From a virus, in IMG/VR virus record IMGVR_UViG_3300018080_002191, positions 1 to 25,927 of that record: a stretch of DNA of 25,927 nucleotides; one strand, written 5' to 3'. The notes under the pieces are model-generated. The model worked only from the letters and a program-made list of their open reading frames with translations. It had not been told where the DNA came from and searched no databases. How positions within the stretch are numbered: the stretch's first letter is position 1; each line of letters begins with the position of its first letter. This document shows, one piece after another, positions 2,830-25,927 of this stretch. A program made the translations under genes and the position numbers.

Positions 2830-3228
2830 TTACTTTTGCTTATTTTCCCAATTGCCCAATTCAATAATCAAGTCGACTTCATGCTTGATTTTATTTAAAT
2901 CTTTCAGCCCTCCACCTCCATCTAAATCATAGCGCAACACCCTCTTAATAATGTCAGCTTTGTGAAAGGGGATGTCGTTTGCGTGGAAGAACTCAAAGGG
3001 TTGAATCTTGAAACCTCTGTAATGTGAACCACCAATTTGCGTTTTTAAAGCGCTATCCCCTTCCTCTTCCACAGTACTGTCCATTCTCTCCCTCTGATCT
3101 ACAACAAAGCGGGAACAAGTACGTACGTCTGTGTGTACCTTGCACCCGTTTCCGCGTGTTTCTGTGCGCAAAACACAATCCTCATCAAGACATTCGTGCT
3201 TCGTTACTGTGTCGCTAAGTTTTTCCAT
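2830..3228 (-). CDS. DUF3310 family protein with Cys-rich N-terminal extension
   Basis: Residues about 66-125 match the DUF3310 pattern common in phages: GGSHY, FKIQPFEFFHAND, F..ADIIKRVLRYD, then DLNKIKHEVDLIIEL. Members are often listed near nucleotide metabolism or replication genes, but the biochemical role is not settled. The first 65 residues are an extension with four cysteines (C13, C18, C29, C38) plus His11 and His32, which could bind a metal. Start and polymerase stop overlap by one base (TAATG), and GGAGG lies about 10 bases upstream of ATG, so it is coupled to the polymerase and should be made together with it. Confidence 0.8.
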   Translation of the reverse strand: MEKLSDTVTKHECLDEDCVLRTETRGNGCKVHTDVRTCSRFVVDQRERMDSTVEEEGDSALKTQIGGSHYRGFKIQPFEFFHANDIPFHKADIIKRVLRYDLDGGGGLKDLNKIKHEVDLIIELGNWENKQK

Positions 3229-4733
3229 TATTCAAAATCCTCCATCTCTCCCCAGTTAAAACCAATTTTAGGATCTACAGGCGTCTCAATCGGAAACCCT
3301 GCAACTCCTTCCATAATCTCTCTTTGTTCCTTAATAATCCTGTCTACATGCCTTTCATCAATCTCTGCAATCAAATCATCATGCACTTGAAACAGGGGCG
3401 AATACTCAATCCCTTCTTTGCGCGACGCTCTATACCAGGGAACCATCTTTCCCATAGCCAATTTCATAACGCCTTGAGCACCCATCTGGATTGGAGCATT
3501 GCACGCTTGCCGTAACGCCTCAGCAACAATGTAAGAACTCTCCCATTTAACAGCTTCAACATAACGCCTCCTGCCCCAGATGTCTTGAACATACCCATTA
3601 CGCCTTGCAAACGCCTCAACACCCTGCATGTATTTCTTAACGCCCTTATACACATCAAACCAGGAATTGATTAGCCCCTCACAGGCTTTAACAGACCACT
3701 CATTTTCACTTGCACCTCCTTGGATTAAAGCTGCTCGTAACCCTTCTGCCTGGATGCCGTAGAGAATGCCAAACCCAACCCTTTTTGCGGGATACCTGTG
3801 CTTCATGTCGTCCAGCCTGCTTACTGGAATGCCAAACATCCTGCTTGCTGTCTGGGCGTGAATGTCCAAGCCCTTCTGGAACACCTCCATTAAAACAGGG
3901 TCTTGAGAAGCAACTGCGGCAACCCTCATTTCAATTTGAGAATAGTCCATAGAGGCAAGCATACAGCCATCCTTTGCTACAAAACCCTTTCTTATTTGCT
4001 TACCCTCTTTGGTGCGTGTAGGAATGGCCATAATGTTAGGGTTTGCTGCACTCATTCTACCAGTATCTGTTGCAGTTATACGCATGTTTGGGTAAATCCT
4101 GCCATCCTTTTTGACCAGTGTCGGCAACACTTCAGTATACGTGTTGTGCAGTTTGCCGAACTGCCTCCACTGTTCAATCAATTCAACAACCGGGTGAGCG
4201 TTCTTCAGGAAGGCGAGAGTTTTTGCGTCAGTACTAAAACCTTTTTTAGTTCTCTTTACAGGGGTAAGATTCAACTCATAAAACAGCAAGTCTTGAACCT
4301 GGTCACTGCTTCCAGGGTTGATTAACTTGTTTGCGCTGTACTCAGCGATTTGTTGTTGCAGAGACTCCATCTTTTCTTTAAACATGTAGGATAGAGACTT
4401 GAAGTGTTCAACGTTCACCTGCACTCCAGCTTTCTGCATGTCGTGGACCATAATCATTGCATCATTGTCTATCTGCCACACTGCAGGAAGAGAGCACTCG
4501 CGCCCACTGTCTCTGTAGTGTCCTCCTCTACCTCTAGTTTCCACACCTAGCATTTTGAGTCTCCTATATATTGACATGTTAGTACGGTTAAAGGCTTTGG
4601 CTATCTTGCTGGTTAACCATCCTTTGTTTGCATAAAGATCAACTACTGCGGAATTAGGGTCATCGTACCCAAGAGTGTAGGCTATTTGTAAAGCTTCTTC
4701 CTTGTCATTCCAGGACAGAGTTTTGACTGGCAT
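3228..4733 (-). CDS. polA: Family A DNA polymerase core with N-terminal HTH-like domain
   Basis: The 501-residue protein is the polymerase part of a PolA-type enzyme. Visible motifs: TDTGR (222-226), motif A DYSQIEMR with Asp263, motif B R313-x3-K317-x3-F321-x3-Y325-G326, GRRR (387-390), and motif C HDD (451-453). Phe321 aligns with E. coli Phe762. Motif C has Asp where most PolA enzymes have Glu (HDE). There is no 5' nuclease and no proofreading domain; a separate exonuclease is encoded immediately upstream. Residues 1-70 instead look like a helix-turn-helix (TSKIAKAFNRTNMSIYRRLKMLGV at 41-64), unusual for PolA. The start overlaps the upstream stop (TAATG) with AGAGG upstream. It is likely the replicative polymerase of this phage. 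Confidence 0.93.
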   Translation of the reverse strand: MPVKTLSWNDKEEALQIAYTLGYDDPNSAVVDLYANKGWLTSKIAKAFNRTNMSIYRRLKMLGVETRGRGGHYRDSGRECSLPAVWQIDNDAMIMVHDMQKAGVQVNVEHFKSLSYMFKEKMESLQQQIAEYSANKLINPGSSDQVQDLLFYELNLTPVKRTKKGFSTDAKTLAFLKNAHPVVELIEQWRQFGKLHNTYTEVLPTLVKKDGRIYPNMRITATDTGRMSAANPNIMAIPTRTKEGKQIRKGFVAKDGCMLASMDYSQIEMRVAAVASQDPVLMEVFQKGLDIHAQTASRMFGIPVSRLDDMKHRYPAKRVGFGILYGIQAEGLRAALIQGGASENEWSVKACEGLINSWFDVYKGVKKYMQGVEAFARRNGYVQDIWGRRRYVEAVKWESSYIVAEALRQACNAPIQMGAQGVMKLAMGKMVPWYRASRKEGIEYSPLFQVHDDLIAEIDERHVDRIIKEQREIMEGVAGFPIETPVDPKIGFNWGEMEDFE

Positions 4734-6094
4734 TATTGTTCCAACCTCTCTTTCAATATATAATACAATTGATATGTAGCGTCAGCATCCTGGCAGGCAT
4801 AATTCAGTGCCGCGCCAAACTCTACCTCACTTAAATCACTCTCCACTAATTCACCAAACACAGCCTCAACTTCAAACTTCTCTTCCTTGTCTACGTTCTT
4901 ACTCCACCATTTAAACAAATCATAGACGCCATCATTTGTGTGTTTCTTGACTGCTTGCATTGTTTTCGAATGTAGTGAACGAGGCTTCTTCATCTTCCTC
5001 TCGCCTTTAACAATCACTTCATAAGGATCAGGTTTACTCCAAGGGTAATCAAAATTCAAGTAATCCAACAAATAATTAAGTGTTTTTTCAACTGTGTAAG
5101 GCGTTACTACTTCACTATATTCGCTCATCTTTAAGCCAAGATGCCTGTAAGCCAGACCCTTTAAGCCCTGTGGCTCTGTTTGAAGTAAGTATGCAGCAAT
5201 CATGGTATCCCAAACATTGACTGGAAATATTCCCATGTTCTCTAATACAGCAAGGTCAAATAACGCATTATGCATTATGGTTTTTATGTTTGGGTCCTGC
5301 ACTTTCATATTCACTAACTCTATAATTTTATAATTATCTGCTTTAACCATGTAACCCGTAGCGTCAGCGCAACTGAAGGTAAGACACCAGGGTTTATGCA
5401 AGTCCTTGTCACCAACCGTCTCAGTATCTATTGCTATAATGCTACTTTCCACAAAGCCTTCTGCGTTTAAAAGATCACTGCAAGTCTCAACAATCTCATA
5501 CTTCTTTTGTTTAGAGTCGAAACTTACTGGCTTGGTTTGGTTCCTGAAAACCCTGCCCACAGTCCTGAAGTCACTCGACACTTTATTAATCATTGAAGCG
5601 TTCTTTAGACCGTAGGCAGGGTGGTATACTGGCAAAACTGTCCTGAACTTTCCTTGAAACAGTCCAGCGTGCGGAACCCCATGAACAATATCCATGTTCA
5701 CATCACCAAGAAATACAGAAGTGCTGACCTTTCCTATTGTAACAATTACAGTAGGATCTACTAACTCTACCGTGTTGCGTAAATACTCAAAACAGGCACG
5801 CATCTCTTCTGGCAAAGGGTCACGGTTCCCTGGAGGTCTGCACTTCACGACATTATCAATGTAAACCATGTCGCGGTTCATTCTGTTTTGCTGGAGTAAT
5901 TGGTTGAGTTCCTTGCCTGCACTGCTGTGCCACTGTTTATAGTAAAAAGGAATACCGGACTTGTCTTCTCCAGATCCAGGACCCTCCCCTAAGAACAGTA
6001 TTCTGCAAGGTATGGGGCCAACACCGTTGACTATTCTGTTGCGGGTTCGGTGCAGTGCGCATTTAGTGCAGTTTTCAACAATCAATTCAGTCAT
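4733..6094 (-). CDS. Family 4 uracil-DNA glycosylase fused to DnaQ-like 3'-5' exonuclease
   Basis: The 453-residue protein joins two enzymes. Residues about 1-190 are a family 4 UDG: Fe-S ligand cysteines C9-x2-C12 and C85-x15-C101, motif GEGPGSGED (36-44), KCRPPGNRDP (84-93) and HPAY (158-161). A short insert (about YYKQWHS, 51-57) interrupts the usual PF-VG-x-AG segment. Residues about 215-453 are a PolA-type proofreading exonuclease: Exo I D223-T-E225, Exo II HN..FD (275-280), Exo III Y432-x3-D436. An Arg/Lys-rich insert lies near 360-385. The frame extends to an ATG at 6124, but ATG 6094 has GAGGAG about 10 bases upstream and avoids a 23-base overlap. It is coupled by TAATG to the polymerase, so it probably provides uracil surveillance and proofreading in trans. 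Confidence 0.9.
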   Translation of the reverse strand: MTELIVENCTKCALHRTRNRIVNGVGPIPCRILFLGEGPGSGEDKSGIPFYYKQWHSSAGKELNQLLQQNRMNRDMVYIDNVVKCRPPGNRDPLPEEMRACFEYLRNTVELVDPTVIVTIGKVSTSVFLGDVNMDIVHGVPHAGLFQGKFRTVLPVYHPAYGLKNASMINKVSSDFRTVGRVFRNQTKPVSFDSKQKKYEIVETCSDLLNAEGFVESSIIAIDTETVGDKDLHKPWCLTFSCADATGYMVKADNYKIIELVNMKVQDPNIKTIMHNALFDLAVLENMGIFPVNVWDTMIAAYLLQTEPQGLKGLAYRHLGLKMSEYSEVVTPYTVEKTLNYLLDYLNFDYPWSKPDPYEVIVKGERKMKKPRSLHSKTMQAVKKHTNDGVYDLFKWWSKNVDKEEKFEVEAVFGELVESDLSEVEFGAALNYACQDADATYQLYYILKERLEQ

Positions 6095-6101
6095 GAGTTG
6101 T

Positions 6102-6443
6102 TTACTCCTCTTGCTCCCATTCATAAATCTTCAACAGTAACCGCATTAAAACATTATCTCTTAACACAACACTTCCGCAATTGTGTGTACATTCATACAT
6201 GACCGCAGCAGGGTAGAAAGTAAGCCTAATGACCATAGGCACGGAGACAATTGAAGCGCTGTTGCAAAACCTGCCCTTTTGCAGCATGAAAAACCCTTCA
6301 ATGAACGCTGCCGCATCTGAGACTTTATGTCCCTCAACAGCAAACTCGTCCGTGTTAATGTCATACCGAATGTCTAAGTTCGGCAAGTCATCAAGAGGGT
6401 TTGTCGATTTAAATATAGGTGGGGAAGGCGTTGTCTTTGTCAT
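6102..6443 (-). CDS. Hypothetical protein, replication module
   Basis: This 113-residue protein is unrecognised. It has an extended Pro/Asn/Asp-rich start, a beta-strand region with SIVSVPMVIRLTFYPAAVMYE (longer segment at about 64-85), two cysteines in ECTHNC, and an acidic helical end (LLLKIYEWEQEE). The ATG at 6443 lies 7 bases after the upstream stop, and its Shine-Dalgarno is weak (GAGAG close to the start). Its stop codon lies in the ribosome binding region of the UDG-exonuclease gene. Position suggests an accessory factor of replication or repair, but nothing in the sequence proves it. Confidence 0.65.
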   Translation of the reverse strand: MTKTTPSPPIFKSTNPLDDLPNLDIRYDINTDEFAVEGHKVSDAAAFIEGFFMLQKGRFCNSASIVSVPMVIRLTFYPAAVMYECTHNCGSVVLRDNVLMRLLLKIYEWEQEE

Positions 6444-6450
6444 AGGACTC

Positions 6451-6681
6451 TCACACTAACCCTTTATCTTTTGCAAGCCACATAGGAATGAGTATTGATT
6501 GCTCCTCTGCATCAATTTCGACTACTCGACTTTTAGGAATCCATATCTCAGTCCCGTCAAAATTAAACAAATAAGCACCTTCTGTCTGGTGCACTATAAT
6601 GTCGTAATGGACGGTTATTTCATCCTCGCCACCATCAAAACCTTCAAGGTAGTACTCAAAATTTTCTCTAAATAGTCCCAT
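6451..6681 (-). CDS. Small acidic hypothetical protein
   Basis: The 76-residue product starts MGLFRENFEYYLEGFDGG and continues as predicted beta strands (ITVHYDIIVHQ, AYLFNFDGTEIWIPKS, RVVEIDAEEQSILIP), suggesting a small beta-barrel or SH3-like fold. I do not recognise a family. The frame opens at ATG 6690, but that codon sits directly on a GGGGGAG sequence. The second ATG (6681) has the same sequence at normal spacing (9 bases), so I prefer it. It overlaps the end of the ERCC4-type nuclease gene by 14 bases, which indicates coupled expression. Confidence 0.65.
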   Translation of the reverse strand: MGLFRENFEYYLEGFDGGEDEITVHYDIIVHQTEGAYLFNFDGTEIWIPKSRVVEIDAEEQSILIPMWLAKDKGLV

Positions 6682-7456
6682 CGTTTTCATCTCCCCCGTG
6701 CATTAAAACGTTTAAAAGTTTAACTGCACTAGCCTTACTGAACCCGTGCAGCTCAGCAATGTCCTCAACAGGTGCAGTGACTAACTCCTGCATTGTCTTA
6801 AACCTCTCACTCAACACTTTACTTTTCTTTTCCCCTAAATCCGGCACTCCCATAAGCATCATTTGCAGCGTGCTAGGTTTCTGGAAATTAAGTAACCCTG
6901 CACGTCTTGGTTCTTTTGGTTTTTGTAATTGTTTATGGGAGGAGTGTTTGTTGAAATCCTTTTGCCACCATAGGTATGTATCTCTAAGCCATGAAACACT
7001 TTGGCTTTGATTAGGCGTGCGCCAGAACAGCACGGTGCAGTTATACTCTAAAGCCGCATTAATGGTTATCGAATTTGCGAAGTTGTTAATTTGCCGACTA
7101 GTTACAGCCTTGCCACTGAAATCGAGGTCCACAGGCCCTTTTCTTTTCTTGTCAAACCGAATGAGTTTATTGGTTAATGGTGCTTCCTTCCAAATGCCTT
7201 CCAGCAGTATATAAACAATGTCGTAATGCTTTAGTAACCCACTCAATTGATGACCTGAGAGCCTGCCACTGTGCATAGAGTCAATAAAGTCTGGAATTGT
7301 TTTCCTCTCTACCCCAATGCTGTATGTCTTGTTGCCTCGACCGTTACCAATAAAGGCAAAGTCTGCAAACTCTAAACGAGACAATTCACAAGTTGTCAAC
7401 TTGGATAGCTTGGGGTAGAACTCTTTGCTGCCTTTTCTGTCGTCTATAAGAATCAT
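6668..7456 (-). CDS. ERCC4-type nuclease with C-terminal helix-hairpin-helix domain
   Basis: The 262-residue protein looks like a small phage relative of the XPF/MUS81 nucleases. The core has DDR at 5-7 and the diagnostic GVERKTIPDF at 48-57 (V-E-R-K-x3-D). The C-terminal 60 residues form a tandem HhH region (MGVPDLGEKKSKVLSERF at about 202-219, then ELHGFSKASAVKLLNVL at 235-251) that in this family binds branched DNA. It is expected to cut branched or flap recombination intermediates. The frame extends to 7519, but ATG 7456 has GGAGAG upstream and forms an ATGA overlap with the methyltransferase stop, so I use it. Neighbours (Sak4-like ATPase, PD-(D/E)XK nuclease) support a recombination role. 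Confidence 0.88.
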   Translation of the reverse strand: MILIDDRKGSKEFYPKLSKLTTCELSRLEFADFAFIGNGRGNKTYSIGVERKTIPDFIDSMHSGRLSGHQLSGLLKHYDIVYILLEGIWKEAPLTNKLIRFDKKRKGPVDLDFSGKAVTSRQINNFANSITINAALEYNCTVLFWRTPNQSQSVSWLRDTYLWWQKDFNKHSSHKQLQKPKEPRRAGLLNFQKPSTLQMMLMGVPDLGEKKSKVLSERFKTMQELVTAPVEDIAELHGFSKASAVKLLNVLMHGGDENDGTI

Positions 7457-7965
7457 GTAAGTTTTCTCTCCACTATCGCTATAGTGCAATGCTGTGCTCC
7501 ACCGTGAGCAAACACGCAAAGCTTATCTAAGTAATAACCTCGTTTCTTACCCATAAACGCAGAGTGATAACCAAAAGAAATAATCCTTGCCGTAGGCTCT
7601 ACAATGTGGACTATCTCATCAGCAACTAGTTTAAACCTGCTATTCAGATTACCGTTATACATCTCCATGGATTTTCTATAAGAGTACGGAGGATCAAGAA
7701 TAACGGTATCAAACCTGTAATCCATTTCACTTTGCCACCACTTAATGAAATCCAGGGCGTCAAGGTGAAAGTCCGCCGACATGCTTTCGTCAACGTCGTT
7801 TCTAACCTCATCCACAGAGAGGTGCGTTTTTCCAGCAAAGAGGTTCAGCACTAAACCGTCACAGTTAAGCTCTACCCATTCACGCATTTTAGAAACTTCA
7901 AACGTGTAACGTTTAAGGGAAGTGTTCACCAACTCTAATGTAGGTTTTTTGACGAGAGTACTCAT
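7453..7965 (-). CDS. DNA methyltransferase, DPPY (N6-adenine type)
   Basis: This 170-residue class I SAM-dependent enzyme has the SAM loop LNLFAGKT (40-47) and catalytic DPPY (91-94), followed by RKSMEMYNGN. That order and DPPY motif are typical of N6-adenine (or N4-cytosine) methyltransferases. It is short and has no visible target recognition domain, as in many compact phage enzymes. No restriction endonuclease gene accompanies it, so a role in protecting phage DNA from host restriction is the likeliest; modification of RNA cannot be excluded. It is coupled on both sides by ATGA overlaps (upstream Sak4-like gene, downstream ERCC4-type nuclease) and has AAGGAG about 11 bases before ATG. Confidence 0.8.
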   Translation of the reverse strand: MSTLVKKPTLELVNTSLKRYTFEVSKMREWVELNCDGLVLNLFAGKTHLSVDEVRNDVDESMSADFHLDALDFIKWWQSEMDYRFDTVILDPPYSYRKSMEMYNGNLNSRFKLVADEIVHIVEPTARIISFGYHSAFMGKKRGYYLDKLCVFAHGGAQHCTIAIVERKLT

Positions 7966-8696
7966 TCAAGCACAATCTCCTTCAATGTCTCAAAATTACA
8001 GTCGCTGCCCACTAACTCAAACCCTACCAAGTCAGGATTATGCCTGCACTCTTCAATACAAACAGCAAACTCACCAGGATAGTCATCGTCATCCATTGGG
8101 TATCTGTACACAACTACACTAACCTGTACAAGGAAAGGCACCTTGCTGAAACCAGCAAACTCATAATCATCCGTCTTCTTATCGTTTACGTATTTAGGCT
8201 TGCGCTTATGTATAAATATAACGCTTTTGTCTTTGTAATCGAAAGCCTCTCTGATTAATTTAGCGAACTCAAAATTAACTGGTTCGTAATAGTGAGGCAT
8301 TACTTTAGATAGCTTTTCTAACTTAGCCAGCCTTATAACCTCCCATGCCTCAGTCTTAGTATCAACAGTAACCACATCAACAGATGGACTGCTAAGTGCA
8401 GCACGATATGAGGCTTTGTATTCATTCCACACCTTTTCAGCCTCTTCTACATTTTGCGGAGTCTTTATGTCTTTGAATGCCGTAACACTGTTCTTGAACT
8501 TATGTATAACACCTTCATGGCCAACATCTAGACTAATGTATGCAGTTCTGCCAGCCGCTGTCAAAGAGAAGTGCGTCTTCCCCTGTTTCTCCAAACCACT
8601 AATGGAAGCGATCAACCTTTGATTTACAGTAAAGTCCGGTTCCGTAAAACCTGCACGTTTTAAATCGGGTGAGAGTTTGTTGGTTGTGTTGCTCAT
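7962..8696 (-). CDS. Sak4-like AAA ATPase (RecA-fold recombination protein)
   Basis: The 244-residue protein has a Walker A motif GLEKQGKT (34-41), a preceding ISGLEK strand-turn, and a Walker B-like strand VDVVTVDTKTE (106-116). This layout fits the phage Sak4/AAA_24 family, short RecA-fold proteins that promote single-strand annealing together with an SSB. The frame begins at TTG 8702 two codons earlier, but ATG 8696 has AGGAGG about 10 bases upstream and is preferred. The gene sits between the ssDNA-binding candidate/nuclease pair and the methyltransferase/ERCC4 nuclease, a typical phage recombination arrangement. A 280-base gap with a large inverted repeat lies directly upstream. Confidence 0.82.
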   Translation of the reverse strand: MSNTTNKLSPDLKRAGFTEPDFTVNQRLIASISGLEKQGKTHFSLTAAGRTAYISLDVGHEGVIHKFKNSVTAFKDIKTPQNVEEAEKVWNEYKASYRAALSSPSVDVVTVDTKTEAWEVIRLAKLEKLSKVMPHYYEPVNFEFAKLIREAFDYKDKSVIFIHKRKPKYVNDKKTDDYEFAGFSKVPFLVQVSVVVYRYPMDDDDYPGEFAVCIEECRHNPDLVGFELVGSDCNFETLKEIVLE

Positions 8697-8788
8697 TGCC
8701 AAATTTCCTCCTTTCTATTTGTTGTTTGAACTATCTCTGGATTGTTTTTAAAACCTTCTGTCGCCTCTTTCCCCCACTTCTTGCAAAC
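8693..8788 (-). pseudogene. Possible gene remnant: open frame without a start, upstream of Sak4-like gene
   Basis: A 31-codon stretch with no ATG, GTG or TTG start, bounded by TAA at 8789-8791, reads VCKKWGKEATEGFKNN and onward, then ends in a TGA that overlaps the Sak4-like ATG (ATGA), just like the real genes around it. Part of it (GKEATEGFKNN) is echoed as GKEAAEDFKNN on the opposite strand at 8928-8960. The normal coupling and the repeated peptide suggest the decayed tail of a former gene, but a chance open frame is possible. Confidence 0.3.
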
Positions 8789-22447: not shown

Positions 22448-23404
22448 CTATCTCCTATCATCCATGGTTCCGTCTACAATCCCAGCACCCAATCCCATAT
22501 ATATTCCAAAGTCACGCCAGGTCTTAATCTCTCCTCTCCGTTTATACAAACCTTTTGCATGGCAGATCACCGGGGCATCCCTCAACTGAAGCCTCCCGTT
22601 TATCACAACCTTCGGTGTCTTATTGTTTATAAAGTAGTTGTATTTGATGCTCGGTTTGTTACCGCCGCACTTAATCAATCTTACAACAATATCAGAGTTT
22701 TTGCAAGAGAGAGTGTAATCTCCTGTTCTCATCCAGGAAAGGCCCCTGCAGGTATTTAACAAAAGGTTGGTGTTTCCCTGATCACTAAGGATTGGGTTGC
22801 TGGTTGTGTAAGTGAGTAATTCCTCAATAAAATCAATGTATTTGTTGCCCTGGTAGAATTGAACGCCACAGTTAATCAACTCAAATCTGTATTTATTTGG
22901 GTCATCTTCAACATTGACGGGTCCGGGGAATATGTTCTTTAAAGTCAGGCACACATCCCAGGAATCATTAAAGATGTCGTGTGTATCGAAACAGTTGGTG
23001 AAAAAAGCGTCAGCATCCAAATAAATCAACCTTTCACACCCCTGTAGCATTTTAACCATTATGGCTTTTTGCAGAGAGGAACGAGTTATTGCAGCTCTCT
23101 CTTTTGTATTTCCAGGTTTGGCGAGTTCGGTATCAGGCAAATCTGCAAACATATTAGGTTCAGGGTCAAGGATATCAGCAAAATTGGACAGTCTCTGTAC
23201 CTGATCATTGGTGAGGCCGAGATCCATAATGTAATAATCGGTGAATACATTGTTTAGGTAACCCATTCGCCTAACAGTTTGCGCCTGATACCGAACGAAC
23301 GGATAGGCAAGGCTATCGGCTAAAGTGCAGATAGCAATCCGTTGTGGAGACGGTTGTTTTGGTTTGTCCGGATTTTTTATTATTTGGTATTGTTGTTTTT
23401 TCAT
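22448..23404 (-). CDS. GT8-like glycosyltransferase
   Basis: The 318-residue protein has the GT-A layout: an N-terminal strand AICTLAD (24-30), DxD-type D130-A-D132 in RLIYLDADAFF, then INCGVQFYQ (177-185), SDQGNTN (207-213) and a late H282-A-K-G285, as in GT8-type enzymes that use nucleotide sugars with Mn/Mg. It should transfer a sugar with retention of configuration; the donor and acceptor are not predictable. The first 20 residues are a Lys/Gln/Pro-rich extension. The start has only a weak A-rich leader. It follows the GT4-type gene by 40 bases and is likely in the same operon. Confidence 0.8.
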   Translation of the reverse strand: MKKQQYQIIKNPDKPKQPSPQRIAICTLADSLAYPFVRYQAQTVRRMGYLNNVFTDYYIMDLGLTNDQVQRLSNFADILDPEPNMFADLPDTELAKPGNTKERAAITRSSLQKAIMVKMLQGCERLIYLDADAFFTNCFDTHDIFNDSWDVCLTLKNIFPGPVNVEDDPNKYRFELINCGVQFYQGNKYIDFIEELLTYTTSNPILSDQGNTNLLLNTCRGLSWMRTGDYTLSCKNSDIVVRLIKCGGNKPSIKYNYFINNKTPKVVINGRLQLRDAPVICHAKGLYKRRGEIKTWRDFGIYMGLGAGIVDGTMDDRR

Positions 23405-23444
23405 TTTTTAACTTTTTAATCAGTTAGCGTCTCTTAGAAGTACC

Positions 23445-24497
23445 TCAAACCTTACTCTCCACCAACTCGATCAACTCTCTGGCAATCTTTGCAGGGTGAA
23501 ATTGTTTGGTCGCATGATTAAAGCAATCTGCAGGATCTAAGCCGTACGTTGCACTCTCTGCGCACGCAATCACGTCTAAATAATCCTCGTCCGTGGCGTC
23601 AACAGGCAGCACATACCCAGTCTCATCATCACGCACATATTCAGGCATACAACCATTAGCGTTTGTAATCATTGGAGTACCTGAAAACGCACACTCTATT
23701 GCAAACGTGCTTCCCATTTCAGGGCAATCTATAGGGTAGAGTGCAGCAAACGCTGAACATATCTCTACCGCTTTCTGTTCTCCATAAACTGCGCCCGTGT
23801 ACGTGACTGGAGCATTATATTCTGAAATTAAATAAAGAAGCCTCTCATGCGCTTTACGTCCTTCATCTCCCCACGGTCCTACAACATTTAAAGGCTTCCC
23901 TGAAAGAGCTGATAGCCTTATTGCGCGTTCGAGACCCTTCTCCTTGAAGGCTCTGGTTAAGTTAGACATGAATATCATGTAGTTGTTCTTCTTTTCCTTG
24001 TACCTGGTTTCATCCAGTAAAGTCGTTTGGTGTATCACAGGCCAGTTTTGACCATAGTGACGGTTGCCATGATTGCTGTTAGTGAAATAGTGCACACCCT
24101 CACGTATGAAACCTTTGTATTTGTACCCTACGACCCTACTAAACATCGGCACTGGAAAGTCAGCAATATCTGGAGGCACCAAGGAAGGATGTTCGCAAAT
24201 AATCGCTGTAGGGTTTAAGGACAGCGCGTACCTGTATGCCTCACTTCTGTATATAGAGCGATCTGGCGGAGAGAAGACTTCATGCACGTTTGCTACATTT
24301 TCTGTAGTGCGGCTACCTGTACGCCCTATAATGTGGAATTCATGAGTTGTGTTGTAGCCTGTTTCGTTTGCATGTTTTATTACGCTTTCCCAGAAACGGG
24401 ATGCTCCACCGTAGTTTGCAAGCTTGCCTTCGTTTGCATAAGGGAAGGGTGATTTGTGTCCACAGATTACTGCTATTTTAGTTACAGGTTTACTCAT
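23445..24497 (-). CDS. GT4-type glycosyltransferase (GT-B fold)
   Basis: The 350-residue enzyme shows the GT-B/GT4 C-terminal signature: MSNLTRAFKEKGLERAI (177-193), LNVVGPWGDEG (203-213), PVTYTGAVYGEQKA (230-243) and the E260-x7-E268 pair in PEMGSTFAIE with SGTPMI after it, the retaining GT4 donor-binding residues. The N-terminal half (GGASRFWESVI) fits acceptor binding. The frame opens two Met codons earlier (24515), but ATG 24497 has AAGGA eight bases upstream and lies just past the preceding stop, so I choose it. In context it would build the same glycan as the GT8-like and GT2-like enzymes nearby. Confidence 0.85.
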   Translation of the reverse strand: MSKPVTKIAVICGHKSPFPYANEGKLANYGGASRFWESVIKHANETGYNTTHEFHIIGRTGSRTTENVANVHEVFSPPDRSIYRSEAYRYALSLNPTAIICEHPSLVPPDIADFPVPMFSRVVGYKYKGFIREGVHYFTNSNHGNRHYGQNWPVIHQTTLLDETRYKEKKNNYMIFMSNLTRAFKEKGLERAIRLSALSGKPLNVVGPWGDEGRKAHERLLYLISEYNAPVTYTGAVYGEQKAVEICSAFAALYPIDCPEMGSTFAIECAFSGTPMITNANGCMPEYVRDDETGYVLPVDATDEDYLDVIACAESATYGLDPADCFNHATKQFHPAKIARELIELVESKV

Positions 24498-24502
24498 CAC
24501 TT

Positions 24503-24703
24503 TCATCCTTTGCATTTTATTTTTATGCGATTTAGTATAGTCCGCTCTCTTTCATCTTCTGTGTTCGTAATCTGCAAATCTCTGTCCAGGTGTATGTTAT
24601 GGACCTCTGCACCCGTTCTTCTCTCAAACAGGCCGATAGATAGGCGAATGTTCGTAATTAATCGGTCCATTGGAGTCTTGTTGGTTTTAGGTTTTTCGTT
24701 CAT
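24503..24703 (-). CDS. Small hypothetical protein
   Basis: The 66-residue protein starts MNEKPKTNKTPMDRLITNIR and is charged throughout, with a probable helix in residues 10-30 and an acidic-basic end (EDERERTILNRIKIKCKG). I recognise no family. AGGTG lies four to five bases before ATG 24703. Its stop overlaps the ribosome binding region of the GT4-type gene (AAAGGATGA), so translation of the two is likely linked. Function unknown. Confidence 0.6.
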   Translation of the reverse strand: MNEKPKTNKTPMDRLITNIRLSIGLFERRTGAEVHNIHLDRDLQITNTEDERERTILNRIKIKCKG

Positions 24704-24720
24704 GTTTCACCTGCCTCTCT

Positions 24721-24813
24721 TTACCTATATTGTGTAGGACTCATAACCAGCTCGTACTCAACAGTTCCACAAATCTCACACACGCGTTTCTGGAAATGTA
24801 GTTCTCTCCTCAT
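24721..24813 (-). CDS. Tiny CxxC protein (30 residues)
   Basis: This ORF encodes MRRELHFQKRVCEICGTVEY and ten more residues, with one Cys-x2-Cys knuckle (C12-C15), half of a zinc ribbon. A very strong Shine-Dalgarno AAGGAGGAG sits five bases before ATG 24813, and it fits snugly between the deacetylase stop (24834) and the next gene start (24703), so a real gene is likely despite its size. It could dimerise around one metal ion. Function unknown. Confidence 0.55.
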   Translation of the reverse strand: MRRELHFQKRVCEICGTVEYELVMSPTQYR

Positions 24814-24833
24814 TGTTCTCCTCCTTAACTTCT

Positions 24834-25469
24834 TTAACCCTTCGCGCTAAAAAACTCATAAGGGTACTCAATCATCGCGTAATTCTTGTTCAGCTTATAC
24901 ACTTTCTCTGCTATACACTTCTTCAATTCCACAGTTTCTTTACTTAACTTATAATACAGTGTAGCTTTCAACCTTAGCTCAAGAGGTATATGCCCCCGTA
25001 TTAACTCGTGCTTCCAGTCAGCTCTAGCCTTTGCCCAGGAGTACATGTGGTGAGAAGGCTTCAAACCTACTCGCGGCAAACCAACAAAGCCAGCATGTTT
25101 GTGTTTCCGTATTGTTTTATTTGCCGCAATTGCTTTATGTTGCTCGTGAAAATCAATGTCTCCATCCAAGTGGTGCGTTATGAGATATCTTGCTTTAGAG
25201 TTCCTTACGACGTCTGCAACAACCTCCGTGTCTATTTCAGCGAGTGTTCTGGTGTCCCTGTTCTTGAATAACGGAAGCATAAGGTTAAAGTAATGTGTTG
25301 CGCCAAGCAATTGGCAGGACCTCTCAAATGCTCTATTCCAGAACGTCCCTTTGTCAGTTACGCAACACACGGTTATTTTATGTCCGTTTTCTGTCCCCTG
25401 TTTAATAAATCCGCCACAAGAAAGTAGTTCGTCATCTGGGTGCGCTGTAATGATTAAGTACTCAGACAT
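24834..25469 (-). CDS. PIG-L family deacetylase
   Basis: The 211-residue protein has the hallmark AHPDDE at 9-14 (metal-binding H10, D13 and catalytic D12) and a second motif THHLDGDIDFHEQH (98-111) supplying the remaining His/Asp ligands. PIG-L/LmbE enzymes remove acetyl groups from N-acetylglucosamine-type sugars with zinc. The frame reaches 25523, but ATG 25469 has GGGAGG five bases upstream and gives the usual short N-terminus of the family, MSEYLIITAHPDDE. With the sulfotransferase and glycosyltransferases beside it, it probably trims an amino sugar in the same glycan pathway. The target could be a virion-attached or a host-surface sugar. Confidence 0.88.
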   Translation of the reverse strand: MSEYLIITAHPDDELLSCGGFIKQGTENGHKITVCCVTDKGTFWNRAFERSCQLLGATHYFNLMLPLFKNRDTRTLAEIDTEVVADVVRNSKARYLITHHLDGDIDFHEQHKAIAANKTIRKHKHAGFVGLPRVGLKPSHHMYSWAKARADWKHELIRGHIPLELRLKATLYYKLSKETVELKKCIAEKVYKLNKNYAMIEYPYEFFSAKG

Positions 25470-25491
25470 GGAAACCTCCCGCACACAACTC

Positions 25492-25927
25492 TTAAGGTTT
25501 TGGAAATGCATCTCTATCTTCATTGAAGGCTATATTTCCTATTTTAAACCTATCCGGTTTTTCCGTCGGTTTGCCGATAACGCCGTTATACTTTGGAACC
25601 CACAGTTTAGAGAGTTCCTTCATTATTAATGGGATGGGCTTTTTCACATTGAACCAGGAGCACAGAAATTTCACAGTCTTCTCAAACTCGTAAGAGAGTT
25701 CATCGTAATGGATTACTATTTTCTTAGTCTCATCTTTAACCATTGCGAAGTTGCTGTACCAGTGCTTCTTTGTCGGGAAATACCCATCGTCGCCTTTAGT
25801 ATTCCAGCCTATAAGCGTATCTTGTTGACTGCGATCAAGGAATATGAATTTCGCGTCAGGGAAGATTTTAAGCCAGACTGGAAAGGTTATACAAGTGCGA
25901 GGGTCCTTGAGCGCCCACTGCATTCCG
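25492..25927 (-). CDS. Sulfotransferase-like protein (5' end off window)
   Basis: The frame is open to the right edge, so the N-terminus with the PAPS 5'-phosphosulfate loop is not visible. The visible C-terminal 144 residues carry WALKDPRTCITFPVWLKIFP then AKFIFLDRSQQD (the 3'-phosphate binding R...-like strand-turn of sulfotransferases) and HYDELSYEFEKTVKFLCSWF, matching the family's late 'Y E.L...P...l..l..FL' segment. It would transfer sulfate from PAPS to a sugar or other acceptor. It lies 22 bases before the deacetylase start. Family call is moderate because half the protein is missing. Confidence 0.68.
   Translation of the reverse strand, partial: GMQWALKDPRTCITFPVWLKIFPDAKFIFLDRSQQDTLIGWNTKGDDGYFPTKKHWYSNFAMVKDETKKIVIHYDELSYEFEKTVKFLCSWFNVKKPIPLIMKELSKLWVPKYNGVIGKPTEKPDRFKIGNIAFNEDRDAFPKP

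Follow-up and report, generated by a model that had tools for sequence, protein, structure and literature searches.

A family 4 uracil-DNA glycosylase and a proofreading exonuclease encoded apart from their PolA polymerase: a probable two-gene form of a phage replicase

Why does a viral genome carry a uracil-DNA glycosylase (UDG) and a proofreading exonuclease in one gene and a DNA polymerase lacking an exonuclease in the next? This question is raised by a window of 25,927 nt, i.e. the whole stretch of DNA analysed here, which comes from one metagenomic virus record (IMGVR_UViG_3300018080_002191). Our best explanation, to which we give a probability of about 0.72, is a two-gene UDG4–exonuclease/PolA replicase that was broken at the linker and whose halves form a two-subunit enzyme with an active UDG. 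The basis of this reading is drawn from sequence, namely the domains with their active-site residues, the order of the genes, the homology with fused chains and the place of the window among fused relatives.

The UDG4–exonuclease gene occupies 4733–6094 on the minus strand, and the span proposed in an earlier note on this DNA is correct. The open reading frame (ORF) itself covers 463 codons at 4733–6124 (minus), a region with stop codons throughout the plus strand. The product has 453 aa if translated from the ATG at 6094 and 463 aa if translated from that at 6124; the ATG at 6094 appears the likelier start because AAGAGGAG sits directly upstream of it. Residue numbers of this protein refer to the 463-aa version throughout. 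At the TAATG junction (4731–4735, minus), the stop codon of this gene and the start codon of the polymerase gene overlap by one base, the local letters being ...CAA TAATG CCA, and a purine-rich stretch precedes the second ATG.

The UDG half (residues 15–196; 5537–6082, minus) matches Pfam PF03167 with E = 1e-25, far above chance level, and passes the NCBIfam cut-off for family 4 UDGs (TIGR00758, 140.4 bits versus 125.3). Its Fe-S cysteines Cys19, Cys22, Cys95 and Cys111 have aligned counterparts in 1ui0 and 1vk2, motif A reads GEGPGSGED and motif B reads HPAY, in agreement with the family 4 pattern of GE(A/G)PG and HP. Thus the cysteines and motifs from which the earlier note had assigned the protein to family 4 hold up against TIGR00758, the alignment and our motif table. 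The motif table also contains E47, E53, F60, N91 and H168, all kept in the window, five positions which we take, partly from the Thermus thermophilus structure, to belong to the UDG pocket. All 33 aligned sequences share the four cysteines, E53 and H168, and the predicted structure of this half has the UDG fold, superposing on 1ui0 with Z = 27.5 and an rmsd of 1.4 over 178 residues. UdgX, the covalent uracil-DNA binder, was ruled out as an identity of the domain, which has GEGPG instead of the GEQPG of UdgX (motif A definitions for family 4, UdgX and the GINPG of family 2 Mug/TDG are from PMC10359453) and scores 66.9 bits with TIGR03914, below its cut-off of 189.95. A short insert after the PF motif, also pointed out earlier, is real: YYKQWHS (5924–5944, minus) makes this site, PFYYKQWHSSAG, five residues longer than PFVGRAG. 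In a table of 92 UDG rows the insert is unique to the window, all others that reach this site lacking it, and the model is of lower confidence there (block pLDDT 79). Lying beside the pocket phenylalanine, it could alter UDG activity. Judged by residues and model together, the window UDG is probably an active glycosylase.

The exonuclease motifs follow in the same frame, as the earlier note had claimed. The PolA-type 3′–5′ exonuclease domain (residues 206–463; 4736–5509, minus) matches PF01612 with E = 1e-21, and the residues of Exo I (D233/E235), Exo II (D290) and Exo III (Y442/D446) are each invariant in 33 sequences. Its model has the expected fold, superposing on residues 324–518 of the Klenow fragment (1kfs) with Z = 21.3 and an rmsd of 2.6 over 176 residues. 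For the whole UDG–exonuclease protein, the AlphaFold2 model built from the 33-sequence alignment has a pLDDT of 93 and a pTM of 0.86, a value that for a two-domain protein is no proof of fixed domain packing.

The downstream gene (3228–4733, minus) encodes a PolA polymerase of 501 aa without an exonuclease domain, so that the polymerase core is indeed a separate gene in a second ORF, and the TAATG junction to a polymerase lacking its own exonuclease is as the earlier note described it. The core, comprising thumb, palm and fingers (3231–4475, minus), matches PF00476 with E = 3e-104 and the Bst polymerase fragment in Foldseek with E = 9e-34; Taq polymerase was also matched, and D263, R313, K317 and D452 of the polymerase are invariant in 33 sequences. 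The polymerase model has an overall pLDDT of 85.8 and pTM of 0.80, with a good core and low confidence at residues 30–79. Absent from the earlier note are about 85 extra residues at the N-terminus (4479–4733, minus). This extension resembles a helix-turn-helix (HTH) domain weakly (HTH_23, E = 3e-4, 20.8 bits, which is below the Pfam cut-off of 24.6) and also shows a weak likeness to the N-terminal part of an HNH endonuclease family (phrog_7545, E = 0.037). No relative of it was found in the phages or viral contigs searched, only marginal matches were obtained among solved structures, and none of the other polymerases collected for domain sorting carries it.

The three domains in this order are known from other phages. 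According to the earlier note, UDG4, the exonuclease and the PolA core are usually separate proteins or a joined exonuclease–polymerase, and many well-described phages with the UDG–exonuclease order would make the protein unremarkable; the single chains of SPO1 gp31, PaBG/Lupandier, 9qhs and environmental phages leave the premise unsupported and make the order itself unremarkable, with only the break before the polymerase being uncommon. PaBG and the phages grouped with it were described in 2020 as having UDG, exonuclease and polymerase united in a single DNA polymerase I (PMC7412058). The three domains and their order in the window are those of gp205 of PaBG and of the ‘Lupandier’ jumbo phages, and the PaBG UDG was modelled on 1ui0 (PMC7412058), which is also the best match of the window UDG; however, the PaBG/Lupandier enzyme is one chain, whereas the window has two genes and an N-terminal polymerase extension. 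Bacillus phage SPO1 gp31 likewise has a UDG-like domain, exonuclease and polymerase in this order, but it is the single product of a gene with an intron and has lost the UDG cysteines and most motif residues, which are intact in the window. A profile of the UDG–exonuclease relatives matches residues 13–335 of the family-A DNA polymerase of phiLo (PDB 9qhs) with E = 5e-23, and Foldseek matches this structure over 473 columns. The phiLo enzyme is one chain of 1142 residues, and its domain arrangement may differ from that of the window since the overall superposition is weak (TMq 0.34, rmsd 16.4); it is absent among the 50 structural-alignment matches listed, and the relation rests on the Foldseek and profile matches. 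The stand-alone T. thermophilus UDG (1ui0) has the same fold, four cysteines and motifs A and B as the window UDG, but not the insert after PF. The window thus has the homologous domains of the UDG–exonuclease–PolA type in order, but on two ORFs rather than on one polypeptide.

To estimate how often the two-gene form occurs, relatives in viral contigs were recovered with alignment queries. Single-sequence queries were insufficient, as the window UDG–exonuclease protein found no match in the viral contigs and the window polymerase found one locus; in scans of viral contigs with these two proteins we found no near-identical second copy of the window. The IMG/VR scan with a polymerase alignment confirmed 188 loci, of which the best 80 were kept, and domain sorting covered 79 of them (L037–L115), counted as contigs of which some are near-identical. 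UDG and polymerase share one ORF in 64 of these 79 loci, including L038, in which the UDG is interrupted, and L045, which is the same contig as L018. UDG–exonuclease stands apart from the polymerase in one (L095), UDG stands apart from exonuclease–polymerase in two (L047 and L068), and a UDG ORF was undetected in 12, among them L054, which is cut by the contig end. In L047 (785–1468) and L068 (118–786) the UDG forms its own ORF before an exonuclease–polymerase ORF, which places the break at the other linker, and in L068 a frameshift is possible because the two ORFs overlap.

Counting all scans, a split like that of the window occurs in four other contigs (L012, L019, L020 and L095). In every split case the halves lie within about 2 kb; other genes stand between them in L019, L020 and L095, and in the window they overlap by one base. 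Stand-alone UDGs were seen in phage contigs L021, L030 and L035. Among GenBank phages, 73 records match the window protein, and many of the matches, those of SPO1 gp31 and PMBT14 included, span UDG and exonuclease within an annotated DNA polymerase; long matches among predicted viral structures include the polymerases of SP-15, Porthos and EFLK1. In bacterial and archaeal genomes, a three-row alignment query gave no UDG–exonuclease match among the best 80 loci, where only residues up to about 230, i.e. the UDG part, were matched. The UDG–exonuclease–PolA order is already known, and its two-gene version is rare. Moreover, a UDG within a replicative polymerase, known from a handful of phages, is common in environmental phages according to these scans.

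Does the UDG act as an enzyme in this family? The table of 92 UDG rows includes 73 fused and 5 split proteins. All four cysteines and the E/E/F/N/H set are kept in 43 of the 73 fused rows and in 5 of 5 split rows, whereas part of this set is missing in 30 of the 73 fused rows. Besides SPO1 gp31, the incomplete ones include L018, with GQNPG as motif A, PMBT14-type chains with GDNPN, and a group around L042 and L044 with AEAPG or AESPG and a leucine replacing the phenylalanine. In addition, the polymerase ORFs of L027, L028, L031, L036 and L055 contain UDGs that lack the Fe-S cysteines and keep GEAP and the histidine, and the fused UDG of L029 (1502–4054) has the family 2 Mug/TDG motif GINPG (PMC10359453) and yet four cysteines. 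By these residues, fused UDGs appear to span a range from intact to decayed, with the window UDG among the intact ones; glycosylase residues are kept in most of the environmental phage chains scanned. The 30 incomplete fused rows and the loss in SPO1 suggest that the UDG as an enzyme is dispensable in some members.

Such decay is what would be expected if the UDG domain were an inactive structural or uracil-binding relic serving the polymerase by its fold only, and in the window the insert adjoins the pocket. Nevertheless, every residue checked is intact in the window, in the four other split proteins and in 43 of the 73 fused rows, and the window protein passes the family 4 cut-off and has a model that superposes on a family 4 UDG of known structure with an rmsd of 1.4, so we consider a relic unlikely for the window. 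It is more doubtful still that the UDG–exonuclease has become an independent repair enzyme no longer bound to the polymerase. This idea would account for a separate protein in the window and four other contigs, for the intervening genes in L019, L020 and L095, and for the stand-alone UDGs of phage contigs; but the halves stay close together in all split cases, with the one-base overlap in the window, and the polymerase core itself lacks an exonuclease, while no second exonuclease was recognised among the other replication genes of the window that were scanned. The two-subunit replicase with an active UDG is the reading that we carry forward.

How, then, did the gene become two? Both window halves align end to end with the fused chain of L005 (33% and 34% identity); the point where they join is the exonuclease–polymerase linker. 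A polymerase tree of 74 rows places the window in a group of 24 rows, 22 of which are fused, although this group is not strongly supported (SH-aLRT 93); L019, L020 and L095 group together elsewhere (96), and L012 is placed at a distance. A single clade of the window, L019, L020 and L012 was rejected (AU p = 7e-5, in a smaller tree without L095), whereas one of the window, L019, L020 and L095 was not (AU p = 0.126). These trees, like the bit scores, rest on automatic alignments. Because the window sits inside a mostly fused clade, fission at the exonuclease–polymerase linker is the most likely origin of its gene pair, and we infer fission as opposed to re-fusion in the relatives. The split of L012, judged by these alignments, is separate from that of the window. 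Some relatives may have become fused again later, since the window branch is weakly supported and a single split clade was not rejected, and the history may comprise one fission, several fissions, or fission plus re-fusion.

The agent of the break may have been a homing endonuclease, as HNH genes abut the L095 polymerase and interrupt the L038 UDG. An HNH gene would have landed in the linker, split the gene and later been lost, with the HTH remaining as the polymerase extension; this scenario addresses the origin of the split and does not conflict with the two-subunit explanation. In split L095, an HNH gene (5450–5959; phrog_1872, E = 1e-26) that overlaps the polymerase ORF lies between the halves, together with an endonuclease VII-like ORF (3867–4379; phrog_1035, E = 3e-9). 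In L038, an HNH gene (4830–5219; phrog_2255, E = 3e-14) cuts the UDG domain in two. The weak resemblance of the window extension to an HNH family points the same way, and phage nrdA and topoisomerase genes are split by homing endonucleases, T4 mobE overlapping nrdA by the same UAAUGA (PMC2988022). However, the window junction itself holds no endonuclease gene, the searches detected no relative of the extension, the L095 nuclease could not be aligned with it, the ORFs scanned between the L019 halves included no recognisable nuclease, and the gp43 split of phage 25 may or may not predate its nuclease (PMC2988022). On balance we regard a homing origin as a tentative proposal, somewhat more doubtful than probable. 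A sequencing or assembly error in the metagenomic contig is very improbable. Such an error might be suspected with a single virus record and no near-identical second copy, but the same split occurs in other contigs, and the polymerase ORF begins at an ATG of its own, preceded by a purine-rich stretch, and carries the additional residues; a one-base frameshift would not create an ATG and an extension of ∼85 residues. As a separate observation, the two nuclease ORFs between the L095 halves lie within 3867–5962 of that contig, with the end of the HNH gene overlapping the polymerase ORF.

Since most relatives make the three domains as one chain, a trans-acting complex, which the earlier note had proposed, is the most natural reading of the two window genes. 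In the two-subunit replicase, an ancestral UDG4–exonuclease–PolA gene would have been broken between exonuclease and polymerase, and both products would probably be translated from one message through the TAATG overlap. The UDG–exonuclease and the extended polymerase would then probably assemble into a two-subunit enzyme, in which the exonuclease would proofread for the polymerase in trans and the UDG would probably remove uracil at the fork. A direct hand-over from uracil excision to the exonuclease is speculative. Somewhat further, it is conceivable, though improbable in our view, that the freed UDG–exonuclease serves as a uracil-triggered proofreading subunit in trans, which would find and excise uracil near the primer end, degrade the strand back and work at its own stoichiometry, perhaps recruited through the HTH extension of the polymerase.

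Split phage replication enzymes that reassemble have been described, namely Aeh1 NrdA and gp43A/B of phage 25 (PMC2988022). Aeh1 nrdA, with mobE, and gp43A/B of Aeromonas phage 25 resemble the window in that an essential replication enzyme comes from at least two genes, and the UAAUGA overlap of mobE is similar to the window junction (PMC2988022); the OM43 phages MEP401/402, with a split PolA (PMC10580990), likewise have a multi-gene replication enzyme. Unlike the window, these splits affect other enzymes or break inside the polymerase domain, and no UDG is described in them. The papers searched contained no functional work on such a UDG domain of a replicative polymerase. The natural split yields two small proteins, with which a role of the glycosylase at the fork can be tested more readily than with a large chain.

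The surrounding genes belong to a recurrent neighbourhood. An ERCC4 nuclease gene with an HhH domain (6668–7456, minus) and a Sak4-like ATPase gene (7962–8702, minus; phrog_124, E = 5e-8) are usual neighbours of the UDG–exonuclease–polymerase gene in relatives, with homologues in 49 and 63, respectively, of the 67 other loci with a match to at least one of nine window genes. Polymerase, Sak4-like and ERCC4-HhH genes look like a shared replication and recombination module; a connection of the neighbours with abasic-site processing is speculative. A DNA methyltransferase-like gene (7453–7965, minus; phrog_11619, E = 1e-34) separates the ERCC4 gene from the Sak4-like one. A link of the UDG to thymine modification was considered and dropped, as no PF00303 or dUTPase match was obtained in nine IMG/VR records whose chains are fused or split; because these records may be partial, the missing matches prove no absence. 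Thymidylate synthase-type genes do lie near the UDG–exonuclease–polymerase chain in SPO1, PMBT14 and ctfzr933. Elsewhere in the window, at 22448–25923 (minus), matches to glycosyltransferase 8 (weak), glycosyltransferase group 1, PIG-L deacetylase and sulfotransferase (weak) follow in a row.
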